DNA of 35,873 nucleotides from a virus. Positions 5,928-28,894 of this stretch are shown one piece after another (within the stretch, counting starts at the first letter, position 1; each line of letters opens with the position of its first letter). Made by a program: the position numbers and the translations under genes. The notes under the pieces are model-generated. The model saw only the letters and a list, made by a program, of their open reading frames with translations. It was not told where the DNA came from and made no database searches. The stretch spans positions 1-35,873 of IMG/VR virus record IMGVR_UViG_3300021197_001063; one strand, 5' to 3'.

Positions 5928-6344
5928 TTAAAACTCCACTGTTACTGATAGATTGTACGCTGTCACAAGCACTGTATGGGTAAATATACCAGTCTTAACA
6001 TAAACAATAGGGATACATACAAAGTCACCGCAATTGCTCTTAACAAAGCCTTTGTATCCATGAATAAGGGCTGCTGATACGCCAAACTTTGATCCCCAGA
6101 ATAAATCATACTCGCGCCCAGCCGATACGGAATAACTGCGCACAAAATGACTATTAACAAACGTCCCTACCTGTGCGGTATTCTTACCATTTAAGTATTG
6201 ATAATAGACAAGCTCATTGTCTTCGTTGTAGTTCGGGCTGTCATCGATAAAGTGTTCAGTAAACAGTCCAAAACCCACGTAGTGCTCTGAGTGTGCCATT
6301 GCTGTACATACAGTTAGGCAGATAAATAAAATAGTTGTCTTCAT
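5928..6344 (-). CDS. Secreted small beta-barrel-like protein (possible outer-membrane moron)
   Basis: This 138-residue protein, first gene of the late operon, has an N-terminal signal peptide: a Lys, a hydrophobic core (ILFICLTVCTAMA) and cleavage likely after Ala17. The mature part alternates aromatic and hydrophobic residues (YVGFGLFTEHF, FVNSHFVRSYSV, FGVSAALIHGYKG) and ends in a terminal Phe, features of small outer-membrane beta-barrels. It contains two close Cys (SNCGDFVC) that could form a disulphide. Similar small barrel-like proteins occur in other phages, where surface modification or exclusion of related phages has been suggested. Its place just after the late promoter is unusual for a non-structural protein. 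The ATG at 6344 has a GGAG site. The function is inferred and weak. Confidence 0.75.
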   Translation of the reverse strand: MKTTILFICLTVCTAMAHSEHYVGFGLFTEHFIDDSPNYNEDNELVYYQYLNGKNTAQVGTFVNSHFVRSYSVSAGREYDLFWGSKFGVSAALIHGYKGFVKSNCGDFVCIPIVYVKTGIFTHTVLVTAYNLSVTVEF

Positions 6345-22991: not shown

Positions 22992-23195
22992 TTATTTTGT
23001 ACACATAAACCGCAATGATTCAATGTATTCCGCTAATTCGCCCGCGTCTTCTCGACTCATTACTACGTTATCACCTTGATAACTAGCGTTTATTGTCGGT
23101 GCTGTCGGCGGAATCTTTGGAGTTGTCAGACACCCCGTTAAGAGAATTAAAGTACTTAACAGGGTCGCGTTTAGCAGCTTTCTTGCGTTTGTCAT
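22992..23195 (-). CDS. Rz1-like outer-membrane lipoprotein (o-spanin)
   Basis: This 67-residue protein starts with a lipoprotein signal, RKLLNATLLSTLILLTGC, with a lipobox LTGC at residues 19-22. The mature part is Pro/Thr-rich at first (PKIPPTAPT), then has MSREDAGELAEYIESLRF, a pattern seen in phage Rz1-like proteins. It should act in the outer membrane as the outer spanin subunit in the last lysis step. It overlaps the 59-residue gene in another frame, the classical Rz/Rz1 layout. Starts at 23210 or 23204 are possible but have no better site. Confidence 0.78.
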   Translation of the reverse strand: MTNARKLLNATLLSTLILLTGCLTTPKIPPTAPTINASYQGDNVVMSREDAGELAEYIESLRFMCTK

Positions 23196-23262
23196 GTTCT
23201 GCATTCTCATAACGGCGAAAGAGCTGTAGAAACAGCTCTATCAGTTTTAGGATTGTTTTCAT
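23083..23262 (-). CDS. Small lysis-cassette protein (possible i-spanin)
   Basis: This 59-residue protein has a hydrophobic or amphipathic N-terminus (ILKLIELFLQLF) followed by a charged helix (RRYENAEHDKRKKAAKRDPV) and a polar, disordered end. Proteins of this form with a DPxxYFN-like segment are common beside Rz1-like genes. The overlap with the Rz1-like gene suggests the inner-membrane spanin, but a spanin would usually be longer. The ATG at 23262 is 2 bases after the upstream stop. Confidence 0.65.
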   Translation of the reverse strand: MKTILKLIELFLQLFRRYENAEHDKRKKAAKRDPVKYFNSLNGVSDNSKDSADSTDNKR

Positions 23263-23264
23263 AT

Positions 23265-23459
23265 TTATTTCTTAGGATTCAAAGCAATCTTAGAGAGAAT
23301 ATCAGATGCCCAACCTAAGCCGCGCTTTGCTTTACCAACGTAATAATCATCTTTAGTGGATGGTGTTACTTTAGCAATTTTTTCTAAGCCAAGCACGATA
23401 CTTGATGCGCCGCCCACAACTGCCAATATAATCACAATCCATTCTTGAATGTTTTCCAT
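23265..23459 (-). CDS. Small membrane protein, holin candidate
   Basis: This 64-residue protein has one membrane helix (WIVIILAVVGGASSIVLGL), then a basic amphipathic helix (KAKRGLGWASDIL). Its ATG overlaps the DUF5675 stop by one base (TAATG). Small conserved proteins with this DDYYVGKAKRGLG segment occur in phage lysis regions. Holin function is inferred from membrane character and context. Confidence 0.68.
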   Translation of the reverse strand: MENIQEWIVIILAVVGGASSIVLGLEKIAKVTPSTKDDYYVGKAKRGLGWASDILSKIALNPKK

Positions 23460-23911
23460 TATAAGTCCTCGTCTTTGATTTCAATATAGACCGCTTCATC
23501 ATCTAGAAGTGCGGCAATTATCTCTAAGTATAAATCTTTATAGCATTCAAAGCTATTTTCGCCGCGCATATCTTTTAGATTTGATTTGTAATTTGGAAGC
23601 AAGCACCCTTCTGTGTCTTCATGGTCATTACCTGGGTGTATGTAGATATAGTCGAAATTTGGAACATCAGCCAGTTCTAGCATGCCTTTGTGCCATGGGT
23701 ACTTATTATAGCGGTTGATCATCCCGCCAGTTTTATTTAATACGATCTCATACCGTCCGGCGGGAATGCGGGTTTTACCATTAATCTTGTTATGCCTGCG
23801 TTCATCTTCTACAGAATGACAGAATAAATACTTAGATACCCCTTTCCCTATATACCATGCGCCAATTGTAGTATCACTATTTCCGCCTAGCCGTTTAATT
23901 TCTAGTTCCAC
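23459..23911 (-). CDS. DUF5675-like protein, candidate endolysin or murein enzyme
   Basis: This 150-residue protein has the order of motifs seen in DUF5675 proteins: an N-terminal strand region, RIPAGRYEIVLN, FDYIYIHPGN, and DTEGCLLPNY. The His...Gly-Cys pattern recalls L,D-transpeptidases (HG...SHGCIRL), with Cys as a possible nucleophile. It lies between membrane-protein genes and the spanin-like pair, and no standard lysozyme, amidase or transglycosylase was found elsewhere, so a cell-wall role is plausible. The GTG at 23911 has an AGGA site 8 bases upstream. No signal peptide is present. Confidence 0.8.
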   Translation of the reverse strand: MELEIKRLGGNSDTTIGAWYIGKGVSKYLFCHSVEDERRHNKINGKTRIPAGRYEIVLNKTGGMINRYNKYPWHKGMLELADVPNFDYIYIHPGNDHEDTEGCLLPNYKSNLKDMRGENSFECYKDLYLEIIAALLDDEAVYIEIKDEDL

Positions 23912-23989: not shown

Positions 23990-24265
23990 GTGTCGGATGA
24001 TAAAGTGAGTAGAGCAGAATTAGCTAGCCATAGGCAAGAGATGTTTGACCATATCGATAGTAAATTCAATACGGTAGTCGATCTGATAAAGGATCAAGGG
24101 GATAGGCAAGATAAGGTTATTGATAAGATATTGCCCAGCCTAAACGATTTAGTTATAGACAAAGCCAAGAAGGACGTTTACTGGAAATTAACTATATTCT
24201 TCGCTTCTTCTTCTTGGCTTGCAATTCTAGGTCGTGTCGGATACTTGATATTTTTAGACCAATAA
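23990..24265 (+). CDS. Coiled-coil, single-pass membrane protein in reverse orientation
   Basis: This 91-residue protein is read from the GTG at 23990, with an AAGG site. Longer readings from 23912 lie over the promoter. Residues 1-60 form polar amphipathic helices (FDHIDSKFNTVVDLIKDQGDRQ). One C-terminal membrane helix (TIFFASSSWLAILGRVGYLIFL) follows. The form resembles XhlA-type lysis accessory proteins, but other membrane roles such as superinfection exclusion are possible. It is the only clear plus-strand gene in the late region and overlaps the 48-residue gene antisense by 74 bases. Confidence 0.58.
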   Translation: MSDDKVSRAELASHRQEMFDHIDSKFNTVVDLIKDQGDRQDKVIDKILPSLNDLVIDKAKKDVYWKLTIFFASSSWLAILGRVGYLIFLDQ

Positions 24266-24338
24266 ACAACAATCCTACCAATACTACCCCGAGAATACAC
24301 ACTAAAATTATTACTATGTATTCTGGGGTTTTTAGCAT
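24192..24338 (-). CDS. Small membrane protein with basic tail, holin candidate
   Basis: This 48-residue protein has one membrane helix (YIVIILVCILGVVLVGLLFI), then a charged end (AKKKKRRI), a layout common among small class III-like or pinholin-type phage holins. The ATG at 24338 has a CGGAGC site. It follows the tail fibre gene and precedes the lysis genes in the late transcript. The 3' half is antisense to the 23990 gene. Which of the two membrane proteins forms the lethal hole cannot be read from sequence. Confidence 0.62.
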   Translation of the reverse strand: MLKTPEYIVIILVCILGVVLVGLLFIGLKISSIRHDLELQAKKKKRRI

Positions 24339-25778: not shown

Positions 25779-26864
25779 CTAGGTTGCTGATATATATGAA
25801 ATGCAAAAAGGGCCGGTAGTTGTTCTATTTTGAGTACCTCCTGCCCATGTTCTGTAGTTTGAGGTAACTTGTCTTGATGTGGTGATATTAATTTCTCCTA
25901 CATGTATCGACCCAAAATCTGACACATTACTAGAAGTCACCATTGGATCAGCCCACTCTGGAAGCCCATCAACAGCCCCCGCCGAAGATGTTGCGGAAGA
26001 ATGGGAAAGCCCGCTTGTCGATATAGTCACAACTCTCCCGATCTTAGAAACAAAAACAGACCCTGCTGTATAGTCGCCACCTAGCGTTGTATAGGAAACC
26101 TCTTCGTATTCAAGCGCGCCATAATACCCTTGTATAGTCGCAGCATCTGGGAATTTATCCGCTGTTGCTGCTGTCATTTCGGCTGACGTTGCCTTCTCCA
26201 CGACGCCTGTATAGTCCTCGGTCGTAAATCGAAAGCCTCTAACTTCATCGTCACCAATAAAAATAACATCAGTCGATAGCAATGTTTCAGCAAGAGTAAA
26301 TGTGGTCGAACTGGTTGAGCTTGGTGTAAGAGCCGTAACAATGCCAGAATTATCTAAGCGATAAAAACGCATGTCAGCATTCGTTGGCGTCCAATCGGTC
26401 GGCACTGTAATTACGTGTGGCCCAGCGCCTGCGGTGAAATCAGTGCCATCTATAAATAGTGGTGATCTATCAAAATCATCTTGCTCTTCAATTGTTACGT
26501 CGCGCAAAGTAATATTTGCCGCATCCCCAGTCGGTACAACTTGTAATACCATGCCATCAATATTGAACGCAGCATTAGCGGTCGTGTTATTGTCTGCATC
26601 GGTTTCATTCAGGTACATTACAATTCTGTAGTCTTGATCAATATGCGGAATAAACCGCGTGCTATCATCAAGCGGATTGCTAATAGGGTAGCCGTCAGCG
26701 GATAAAGCACACTTAGCAAGCGTGGTGCCGCCTGTACTGTCCGTAGCCATGTTTATTGGCGTGGTTGTCCCGCTAGCATAGAACTTAATGTAATAATCAG
26801 CAGCAAGCCCGTTGTTAGCTGTGGAATACTGCGGCAATGTGCCGCTAATCGGTAGCCATGCCAT
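25779..26864 (-). CDS. Tail fibre/spike, paralogous N-terminal domain
   Basis: This 361-residue protein starts MAWLPISGTLPQ. Residues about 20-110 (YYIKFYASGTTTPINMATDS, ISNPLDDSTRFIPHI) match the downstream fibre, indicating a duplicated anchor. The middle part (residues 125-230) and C-terminal part (235-361) are beta-rich and unlike the other fibre. The latter ends in a compact domain that could be a receptor-binding tip. The start overlaps the gp16-like gene's stop by one base (TAATG). A two-fibre system on one tail is likely. Confidence 0.82.
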   Translation of the reverse strand: MAWLPISGTLPQYSTANNGLAADYYIKFYASGTTTPINMATDSTGGTTLAKCALSADGYPISNPLDDSTRFIPHIDQDYRIVMYLNETDADNNTTANAAFNIDGMVLQVVPTGDAANITLRDVTIEEQDDFDRSPLFIDGTDFTAGAGPHVITVPTDWTPTNADMRFYRLDNSGIVTALTPSSTSSTTFTLAETLLSTDVIFIGDDEVRGFRFTTEDYTGVVEKATSAEMTAATADKFPDAATIQGYYGALEYEEVSYTTLGGDYTAGSVFVSKIGRVVTISTSGLSHSSATSSAGAVDGLPEWADPMVTSSNVSDFGSIHVGEINITTSRQVTSNYRTWAGGTQNRTTTGPFCISYISAT

Positions 26865-28894
26865 TATTGTTGTACCTCTGTTTGCACTTCAGCATTTGCC
26901 GCTTCCGATAATTCGCGTTCAAATTCTGTAGTGCCTTTAAGTGGATTAGCCTGTAAAGAAGCTCGAAGTATATCATTAAACTGCATTCCAAGCTTCTGCA
27001 ACCCATCACTGCCGGGCTTCATTGTTTTAGCTTTGATAAGAATATTACGAACCTTTGGTGATTCAAATAAACGAGATATACCACCTAATGATGCATATGC
27101 AGCAAAGGATGAAGCTGGCACTGCGCCAGATACGCCACCCGCTATCCCCGCGAGAATTGCGCCGCTCGTTGTTACACGCTCAAACGTCTGAGAGCCAGAC
27201 CCGCGCTCAACTTCTTGGGCGCGCTTAGTGATATTCATAAGATTCAAGAACCCTTCGACTTCGTCCTTCTTCTTGCCTTTAAACAGTGAATCTATACCAT
27301 CTTTATATTTGTTAAGCTGTGTTGCTATCGATGTTGGTGACAACCCCTTGTCTCTTCCAGCTAGATCATCAGCTATCTGTGTGATAAATGCCGCTCTCGC
27401 TGCGTCCTGCCCTTTAGGAGTTAAACTCTTATATAAACGATCAATATCTGATTTGTTACGAGAAAACATCATATTACGCACAACTTCAGGGGTTGCTTCG
27501 CCCTTGTCTAAAATTGCTTTTAATTTTGACGTGCCCATGTCTGTGACAGTTTCGCCCCATGCTTTATCCGCTGCTTTTAACGAGCTAAAGTCAGTTGGTG
27601 ATAAATTGCTGGCGGCAAAATCATCGCGGTCTTTTCGTGCCGCCTTTAACACACCATCAAAGCGGGCTTTTATTTTACTTGGAAGCGCGCGACTATTTGG
27701 ATCAATAGAATTTAGTTTTTCATGCCAGCTCGAAATATTGTCCTTCAATACTTGGAATGATTGAGGCGTGCCGGTCATAAGCGCGTCAAAATCGTCGGCC
27801 ATATTTAACACCGCCTCGTCAACATCAAGCCCTGGCGTAGTTAAATATTCATTCAAGTTATTCATGCTTTTTGCAGCATTACTCATGGGTACGCCGTCAC
27901 CCTGTGATAATTGATCAAGGTACGGGTTTACTTTGTTGTACACATCGCCTGCCGCTTTTCGTAGCTCTTTTGATTTTGCACCAATCTCTTGAACTACTTC
28001 TTCATAAGTACCACCGCGATACATGCCTACAAAATCATTTAAAGCCTGCTCTCTTGCTTGCTGCTGTGAATGCCTAACACCGCCAGTGCCTACCACTGGC
28101 AACCACTCTGACGTGATTTGTGCTCCACGCTCGAACCAGTTCTTAGGGTTATAAATATCTGTAGTCATGACAGGGACATTAAACTGTTCAGAAGCAGCTA
28201 AAATACCTTCTACAGCTTCGTCTGCTTTGCCTTTTGTGCTTCTATATGCAAAGCCAGCTAAATCACCCAGTCCCTGCATTCCTGCGCCAATACCTCCAGC
28301 TGCCACGACATCTCCAGTATCAAAGTCGCCACCGGATGCAGCTTGCACGCCTTGCAATACAGCTTCCTTGCCCGCTTCTGTGGCTGCTGTTTTTAGTATT
28401 CCGCCAGTTGCTCCGCCAGCGAAAGCCGCAGCTTGTCCGCCAAATTGAGCTAGATTCATTGCGTCAACCCCTGGGCGGTCAATAATAGCTGTTTGGCCAT
28501 TGCTTGGATTTACTAAAACTGGGTATATATTGCCTTTGGCGTCTTTGTCATATTGAACGCGTATGTCTGGAAATGTTTTCGATATAATGTTTGCCAATTC
28601 ATTTTGATCATTGGTAACAAGGGTTAGCGCCGCAATTTTTGCTACCTTCAAAGGATTTTCACCATTAAGGAATCCACCCTCTATAATAGTTGGCAATTCT
28701 TCTAGGTTTTTGGTTGCGCGATCTTTGCCGCTAAACCAATCACTAAATGATTCGAATAGGCCTTTTTCGTTTTCTACTTCTTTTGGCGTATCTTCTCGTT
28801 GACCAGCTGGCACATCAAGTATGAACCCGTCCGGTATTTCGTTAGATACTTCTGCATCAGCTTCTAGCTGAAAACCTTCCGGTAATCCTGTCAT
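26864..28894 (-). CDS. Ejection protein, gp16-like slot
   Basis: This 676-residue protein, large and Ala/Gly-rich, lies at the gp16 position of P22-type genomes (order 7, 20, 16). It has hydrophobic Gly/Ala-rich stretches (about 150-215 and 585-625) that could enter membranes and long helical segments between them. P22 gp16 is ejected with DNA and helps its passage into the cell. The start is one base from the gp20-like stop. The assignment rests on position, size and composition; sequence similarity cannot be checked here. Confidence 0.75.
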   Translation of the reverse strand: MTGLPEGFQLEADAEVSNEIPDGFILDVPAGQREDTPKEVENEKGLFESFSDWFSGKDRATKNLEELPTIIEGGFLNGENPLKVAKIAALTLVTNDQNELANIISKTFPDIRVQYDKDAKGNIYPVLVNPSNGQTAIIDRPGVDAMNLAQFGGQAAAFAGGATGGILKTAATEAGKEAVLQGVQAASGGDFDTGDVVAAGGIGAGMQGLGDLAGFAYRSTKGKADEAVEGILAASEQFNVPVMTTDIYNPKNWFERGAQITSEWLPVVGTGGVRHSQQQAREQALNDFVGMYRGGTYEEVVQEIGAKSKELRKAAGDVYNKVNPYLDQLSQGDGVPMSNAAKSMNNLNEYLTTPGLDVDEAVLNMADDFDALMTGTPQSFQVLKDNISSWHEKLNSIDPNSRALPSKIKARFDGVLKAARKDRDDFAASNLSPTDFSSLKAADKAWGETVTDMGTSKLKAILDKGEATPEVVRNMMFSRNKSDIDRLYKSLTPKGQDAARAAFITQIADDLAGRDKGLSPTSIATQLNKYKDGIDSLFKGKKKDEVEGFLNLMNITKRAQEVERGSGSQTFERVTTSGAILAGIAGGVSGAVPASSFAAYASLGGISRLFESPKVRNILIKAKTMKPGSDGLQKLGMQFNDILRASLQANPLKGTTEFERELSEAANAEVQTEVQQ

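Follow-up and report, generated by a model that had tools for sequence, protein, structure and literature searches.

A DUF5675 protein with a predicted L,D-transpeptidase-type fold is the candidate endolysin of a P22-like podovirus

Endolysins are grouped according to the bond that they break; with few exceptions, those known so far are muramidases, transglycosylases, amidases, or metallo- or CHAP-type endopeptidases. The YkuD class of phage lytic enzymes in PhaLP has only 10 entries, which were assigned through PF03734, PF10908 and cd16913, and PF18925 (DUF5675) is not included (PMC8310338). The YkuD motif has been given as H(S/G/D)X14-19C (PMC4599014), and the His and Cys of the effector Tlde1a are H121 and C131 (PMC9638812). 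In DpaA, Ala145 lies two residues past the catalytic Cys, a site that is Arg in many L,D-transpeptidases, and Lys83, located 60 residues before Cys143, serves to dock the carboxylate of mDAP and is indispensable (PMC10653827). PF18925 was not named in the open literature that we searched, and enzyme data for any DUF5675 protein were not found there; Pfam and PHROGs assign the family no function, which agrees with the view of an earlier note on this DNA that the class is poorly described.

The window, by which we mean the whole stretch of 35,873 nucleotides that was analysed (IMG/VR record IMGVR_UViG_3300021197_001063), is a complete, circularly permuted genome of a short-tailed, P22-like podovirus. 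The genome was judged complete because the ORF of the scaffold protein (minus strand) runs uninterrupted across the joined ends (35873/1); an end repeat is absent. PHROG scans identified the P22-like parts, namely portal, terminase, major head protein, head-closure and P22-type DNA-ejection proteins. Past the tail-fibre gene, the minus strand carries in this order a 48-aa membrane protein, DUF5675, a 64-aa membrane protein, a 59-aa ORF and an Rz1-like lipoprotein. The features considered below are the following.

26864..28894, minus strand: gp16-like virion/ejection protein (PHROG labelled 'transglycosylase', phrog_29864, 4.5e-17)
24192..24338, minus strand: 48-aa small membrane protein, possible second holin or antiholin (judged from the sequence; a weak match to LapA_dom is the sole Pfam match)
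23990..24265, plus strand: protein with a coiled coil and a C-terminal membrane helix, candidate lysis regulator (in 8 relatives read, 87-115 aa)
23459..23911, minus strand: DUF5675 protein of 150 aa, candidate endolysin (PF18925, 1.4e-21; phrog_1501)
23786..23788, minus strand: codon of Lys42, invariant (Lys in 60/60 relatives)
23636..23638, minus strand: codon of His92, proposed general base (His in 60/60 relatives)
23603..23605, minus strand: codon of Cys103, proposed nucleophile (Cys in 60/60 relatives)
23265..23459, minus strand: 64-aa one-helix membrane protein, holin candidate (phrog_9685, 2.2e-20; swapped for a PHROG holin in relatives)
23083..23262, minus strand: 59-aa amphipathic/charged ORF, candidate inner spanin or spanin partner (conserved in the relatives read)
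22992..23210, minus strand: 72-aa Rz1-like lipoprotein, outer spanin (phrog_8971, Rz-like spanin, 8.1e-8; lipobox LLTG/C)

The DUF5675 gene, which has the 48-aa membrane ORF upstream of it, starts with GTG behind an AAGGA sequence and encodes a protein without an N-terminal hydrophobic signal; its stop codon overlaps the start of the gene for the 64-aa membrane protein (TAATG). The 59-aa ORF, in which a clear membrane helix is absent, overlaps the lipoprotein gene out of frame, and its relatives match phrog_9219 at 4e-8 and 2e-10. ORF calls, Pfam and PHROGs bore out the gene layout of the earlier note, which had placed DUF5675 between small membrane proteins and an overlapping Rz1-like lipoprotein. 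The cassette is kept in relatives whose DUF5675 proteins are 67-74% identical to that of the window, arguing that the arrangement is not due to chance. The divergent product of 23990..24265, for which a Pfam search gave no match, may be an antiholin or an XhlA-like regulator. Elsewhere in the window, the minus-strand ORF at 5928..6344 matches a PHROG annotated as PagP (lipid A acylation/antimicrobial peptide resistance, 1.1e-10) and, judged from this match, is possibly an outer-membrane modifying moron.

The window protein belongs to the DUF5675 family, as it scores 76.9 bits against PF18925, where the gathering cut-off is 26.7. Relatives were found in Vibrio, Bacteroides crAss-like, Campylobacter, Pseudomonas, Alteromonas and Thiohalocapsa phages, as well as in many uncultured viruses and in bacterial genomes. 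Alignment of 60 members uncovered seven invariant residues (Lys42, Gly52, His92, Gly94, Asn95, Cys103 and Ser120) and the signature H-x-G-N-x3-(D/H)-T-x-G-C-(I/L)-L. The HPGN and DTEGC motifs pointed out in the earlier note are therefore real features of the family, spanning the invariant His92 and Cys103, and chance was rejected as the source of the motif match because the motif hardly varies among 60 diverse sequences. His92 and Cys103, present in all 60 relatives, would correspond to the invariant catalytic His and Cys of the L,D-transpeptidase fold superfamily. We did not file the protein under the YkuD family, the cross-link-forming L,D-transpeptidases or Tlde1, since it fails on each of their marks. 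It had no Pfam match to YkuD (PF03734) at E values up to 1; the strict YkuD motif is replaced by H-x10-C, in which the His is mostly followed by Pro, Val, Ile or Thr among the 60 members; the transpeptidase Arg at Cys+2 is Leu in 59/60 and Val in 1/60; and the score against Tlde1 (PF10908) is 16.3 bits versus a cut-off of 30.1, with TEGC in place of (S/T)HGC. Weak matches to Tlde1_dom were obtained for 36/60 members (best 7e-5) and to YkuD for 7/60 (best 0.003).

Bacterial homologues of DUF5675 carry a C-terminal SH3_3 domain (L100:5995-6639, 1.3e-7; L127:5998-6636), which, as a wall-binding domain fused to DUF5675 in a bacterial homologue, we counted in favour of a murein role. The fold of DUF5675 was also found within viral proteins that are about 870 to more than 1200 aa long (BFVD A0A1L7N1E2 and A0A8S5VTR0), including one of Ralstonia phage RP31, which suggests that virion-borne versions exist.

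The earlier note had likened the His and Cys motifs to those of L,D-transpeptidases and had proposed a comparison of a predicted structure with YkuD folds. AlphaFold models of two distant family members, the window protein (pLDDT 88.9, pTM 0.84) and a 127-aa protein (pLDDT 93.3), were compared with solved structures by Foldseek and then by VIA-align. The best match of the window model was Pgp2 (Z 9.1, rmsd 3.1, 115 residues aligned), followed by DpaA (Z 8.3), Bd1075 (8.2), Csd6 (7.9) and LdtMt2 (7.8), after which the next row drops to Z 2.2; the identities to Pgp2, DpaA, Bd1075 and Csd6 are 10-15%. The second model reached a best Z of 9.7, with Z>=2 in 67/997 aligned chains, and the rows listed are L,D enzymes throughout, among them B. 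subtilis YkuD (Z 8.6) and Tlde1a (Z 7.8, 19% identity). Some of the Z values of the two models fall in a range that a common arrangement can give. Thus both predicted models resemble YkuD-fold L,D-transpeptidase and L,D-carboxypeptidase structures and essentially nothing else, unrelated rows being at Z of about 2 or absent, and the resemblance first noticed in the motifs is supported at the level of the fold. Foldseek alone was weak: its best E value for the window model was 0.06 (DpaA, which alone among L,D enzymes ranked near the top), and with the second model RNase E noise was ranked first. When the sequence profile of the family was searched against solved structures, no L,D enzyme was found, so that the evidence for the fold rests on predicted models, and profile comparison against a single YkuD sequence was likewise without success. 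In view of the clear gap to unrelated chains, of two models obtained independently, of the sequence profiles and of the invariance of Cys and His, we regard the predicted L,D-transpeptidase-type (YkuD) fold of DUF5675 as firm.

The spacing of His92 and Cys103 resembles that of H121 and C131 in Tlde1a, and the invariant Lys42 lies 61 residues before Cys103; by analogy, we propose that Lys42 may be the equivalent of DpaA Lys83. Since the transpeptidase Arg has been lost and the hydrolases Pgp2, DpaA, Bd1075 and Csd6 top the list for the window model, DUF5675 is probably a hydrolase rather than TRANSPEPTIDASE.

The strongest evidence for the function of DUF5675 came from the exchange of genes in lysis cassettes. 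A search was made with the 64-aa membrane protein (phrog_9685), and the genes directly upstream of its matches were read. That position is held by a CHAP protein in Aeromonas phiARM81mr (1.6e-8), an M15 peptidase in Vibrio 1.205.O (1.4e-11), a GH19 protein in E. coli IME392 (4e-8), and a GH108 protein with a peptidoglycan-binding domain in Vibrio 252E42.2 (6e-12). In viral contigs the slot is again occupied by CHAP-like, GH108-like and M15-like proteins and in one case by DUF5675; many prophages have CHAP-like and GH108-like proteins there. Conversely, the closest relatives of the window DUF5675 keep the lipoprotein and a 59-67-aa ORF, and their membrane protein is either of the phrog_9685 type or an unrelated 67-aa protein that is a PHROG holin (phrog_34682, 1.5e-10). 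Because murein hydrolases are swapped in the slot and the holin is swapped around a constant DUF5675 and lipoprotein, the endolysin, holin and spanin-type positions form interchangeable modules of a single cassette, and in the window DUF5675 adjoins the candidate holin and spanin genes. An exception to the slot content was seen in T4-like Shewanella-type phages (L177, L207, L208, L213 and L215), where a tail-fibre-like protein precedes the phrog_9685 protein.

We also asked whether the genome encodes another endolysin. Comparison of 50 window ORFs with PHROGs gave only Rz-like spanins as other genes of the lysis category, and no murein hydrolase domain was found by Pfam in 20 window ORFs that included the larger virion proteins. 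With the search for seven endolysin families, for which the controls worked, these scans revealed no other recognised endolysin, in line with the absence of other murein enzymes noted earlier, with the caveat that the gp16-like protein matches phrog_29864. This protein has no Pfam domain even at E 1 and is not shared by the close relatives of the lysis cassette, only one relative of it having been found. The seven families (Phage_lysozyme, GH108, Amidase_2, M15_3, M15_4, CHAP and SLT) were absent above the curated cut-off from all 28 virus records with DUF5675, the window included, one of which had a sub-threshold SLT match. As a positive control, 8/10 comparison records with the phrog_9685 membrane protein and another gene in the slot matched these families. 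The contrast of 0/28 with 8/10 (p = 9e-7) is not counted as evidence, because the ten comparison records were picked after their slots had been read and are not independent. A scan of the records for GH19 matched nowhere and had no working control, so this negative is empty. The survey of lysis cassettes that the earlier note had called for thus found DUF5675 filling the slot of standard endolysins, with the seven families absent from the 28 records, and lends support to the endolysin role that the note had suggested, as a candidate.

Lysis-type neighbourhoods recur in other phages. Membrane proteins on the same strand and within two genes were found for 27/47 DUF5675 genes versus 32/150 controls, an enrichment among records that are not independent. 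In crAss001, the family member gp30 is near gp27 and gp28, annotated as a lysis regulatory protein and a holin, and in a Thiohalocapsa phage DUF5675 is near an annotated spanin. In Vibrio phage Virtus, DUF5675 is followed immediately by a membrane protein (PMC9229204), and in R21Y the two are numbered consecutively as ORF 73 (DUF5675) and ORF 74 (PMC10671443). Vibrio Ackermannviridae have the gene outside the lysis slot, inserted between the portal and prohead genes (L016:6263-6715 and L239:2501-2965), where related genera without DUF5675 have nothing. The timing or role of DUF5675 may differ in these phages, and, since the gene sits among head genes there, lysis may not be its role everywhere. 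As the gene is an insertion in this family and the Phage_lysozyme search matched none of these records, the slot-swap comparison is uninformative for them. In two unrelated myoviruses (L237 and L238), an annotated permuted papain-like amidase, possibly a second wall enzyme, lies a few genes upstream of DUF5675.

The order of the genes, the fold, the invariant residues, the exchange in the slot and the absence of recognised endolysins were all computed, and we give a probability of roughly 0.7 to the reading in which DUF5675 is a cysteine endolysin that is released by a holin and hydrolyses mDAP-D-Ala bonds, those in cross-links included. According to this model, DUF5675 would accumulate in the cytoplasm as a small soluble cysteine hydrolase until the neighbouring small membrane protein, acting as a holin, opened the inner membrane and let it enter the periplasm. 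There Cys103, activated by His92, would attack the L,D bond that joins meso-DAP, at position 3 of the stem peptides, to D-Ala at position 4, and water would free the acyl-enzyme, so that cross-links would be cut and not made. The downstream spanin-type proteins would then disrupt the outer membrane. Dependence on the holin, the exact bond, hydrolysis over transpeptidation, and lytic activity itself are what we infer.

Several points weigh against an endolysin. The best-studied structural neighbours of DUF5675 trim stem peptides or move lipoproteins, there being no lytic endolysin among them, and an enzyme with L,D-carboxypeptidase activity only would leave cross-links intact. The weak Foldseek E values, the lack of the strict YkuD motif and the position of the gene in Vibrio Ackermannviridae also count against it. 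One rival is a poison like Tlde1 that trims D-Ala4 or swaps it for another D-amino acid (L,D-carboxypeptidase or exchange activity), with growth-driven failure of the wall ending the cell. Tlde1_dom is the commonest second profile match of the members, the second model aligns with Tlde1a at the Z of 7.8 and 19% identity given above, the His-Cys spacing of Tlde1a (PMC9638812) is similar to that of H92 and C103, and L,D-carboxypeptidases are the top fold matches. The window protein, however, falls under the Tlde1 cut-off (16.3 versus 30.1 bits), its slot is where ordinary lytic endolysins interchange, and the downstream spanin-type genes imply removal of the wall; we consider such a poison unlikely.

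Slightly less likely still is an accessory role, either release of wall-bound lipoproteins as by DpaA or remodelling of the wall, with the real endolysin being an unrecognised or a virion protein. DpaA is both among the best fold matches (Z 8.3) and the best Foldseek match, the gp16-like virion protein matches a PHROG labelled transglycosylase, and the gene lies among head genes in Vibrio Ackermannviridae. Against this, that virion protein lacks a Pfam murein domain even at E 1, the seven endolysin families are missing from the 28 DUF5675 records, and the slot itself is that of an endolysin. That DUF5675 has no murein role and is beside lysis genes by happenstance, for which one may cite its listing as a family of unknown function in Pfam and PHROGs, is very improbable in view of the fold, the invariant catalytic-type residues, the SH3_3 fusion, and a holin and spanin neighbourhood that recurs in unrelated phages.

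The endolysin reading could extend beyond the window. Somewhat short of an even chance, in our estimate, is the broader claim that DUF5675 represents a widespread and so far unrecognised class of endolysins, cysteine L,D-endopeptidases derived from wall-building or wall-trimming enzymes and cutting mDAP-D-Ala of cross-links. If it is true, crAss-like, Vibrio, Campylobacter and many uncultured phages would rely on such endolysins, and an endolysin could be named in crAss-like and marine phages where none has been recognised. Inhibitors of L,D-transpeptidases, of which carbapenems and copper are known examples, would be expected to act on them. A lytic hydrolase from the L,D-transpeptidase fold would extend the list of endolysins by one bond and one chemistry, and both a Pfam family and a PHROG now without a function would acquire one. 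The proposal lends itself to a clear test with one small protein, one Cys mutant and defined muropeptides.

To call DUF5675 a new class is too strong, because crAss001 gp30 has already been annotated as an L,D-carboxypeptidase/transpeptidase and PhaLP has a YkuD class; what the present analysis adds is the slot-exchange evidence and the survey. The crAss001 gp30 protein and its kin belong to the same DUF5675 family and carry the annotation 'L,D-carboxypeptidase/transpeptidase' beside lysis regulatory protein and holin genes, but they are about 30% identical, have Bacteroides hosts and were annotated by similarity only, and crAss001 additionally carries a CHAP-annotated tail protein. Like DUF5675, the PhaLP YkuD class has an L,D-transpeptidase-type domain, there counted among phage lytic enzymes. 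The L,D-carboxypeptidases Pgp2, Csd6 and Bd1075 and the amidase DpaA have the predicted fold and the Cys/His pair in common with DUF5675, as well as the missing transpeptidase Arg (as in DpaA, Ala145) and a Lys that precedes the Cys by a comparable number of residues; these are, however, cellular housekeeping enzymes with a longer His-Cys spacing (Csd6 H160-C176). The Tlde1 T6SS effectors (PF10908) have the same fold, a short His-Cys spacing and a weak profile match to DUF5675, but they carry SHGC instead of TEGC and are delivered by the T6SS, whereas release by a holin is proposed for DUF5675. Finally, the M15, CHAP, GH108 and GH19 endolysins occupy the same position as DUF5675 upstream of the phrog_9685 protein, although their folds are unrelated and they cut other bonds.
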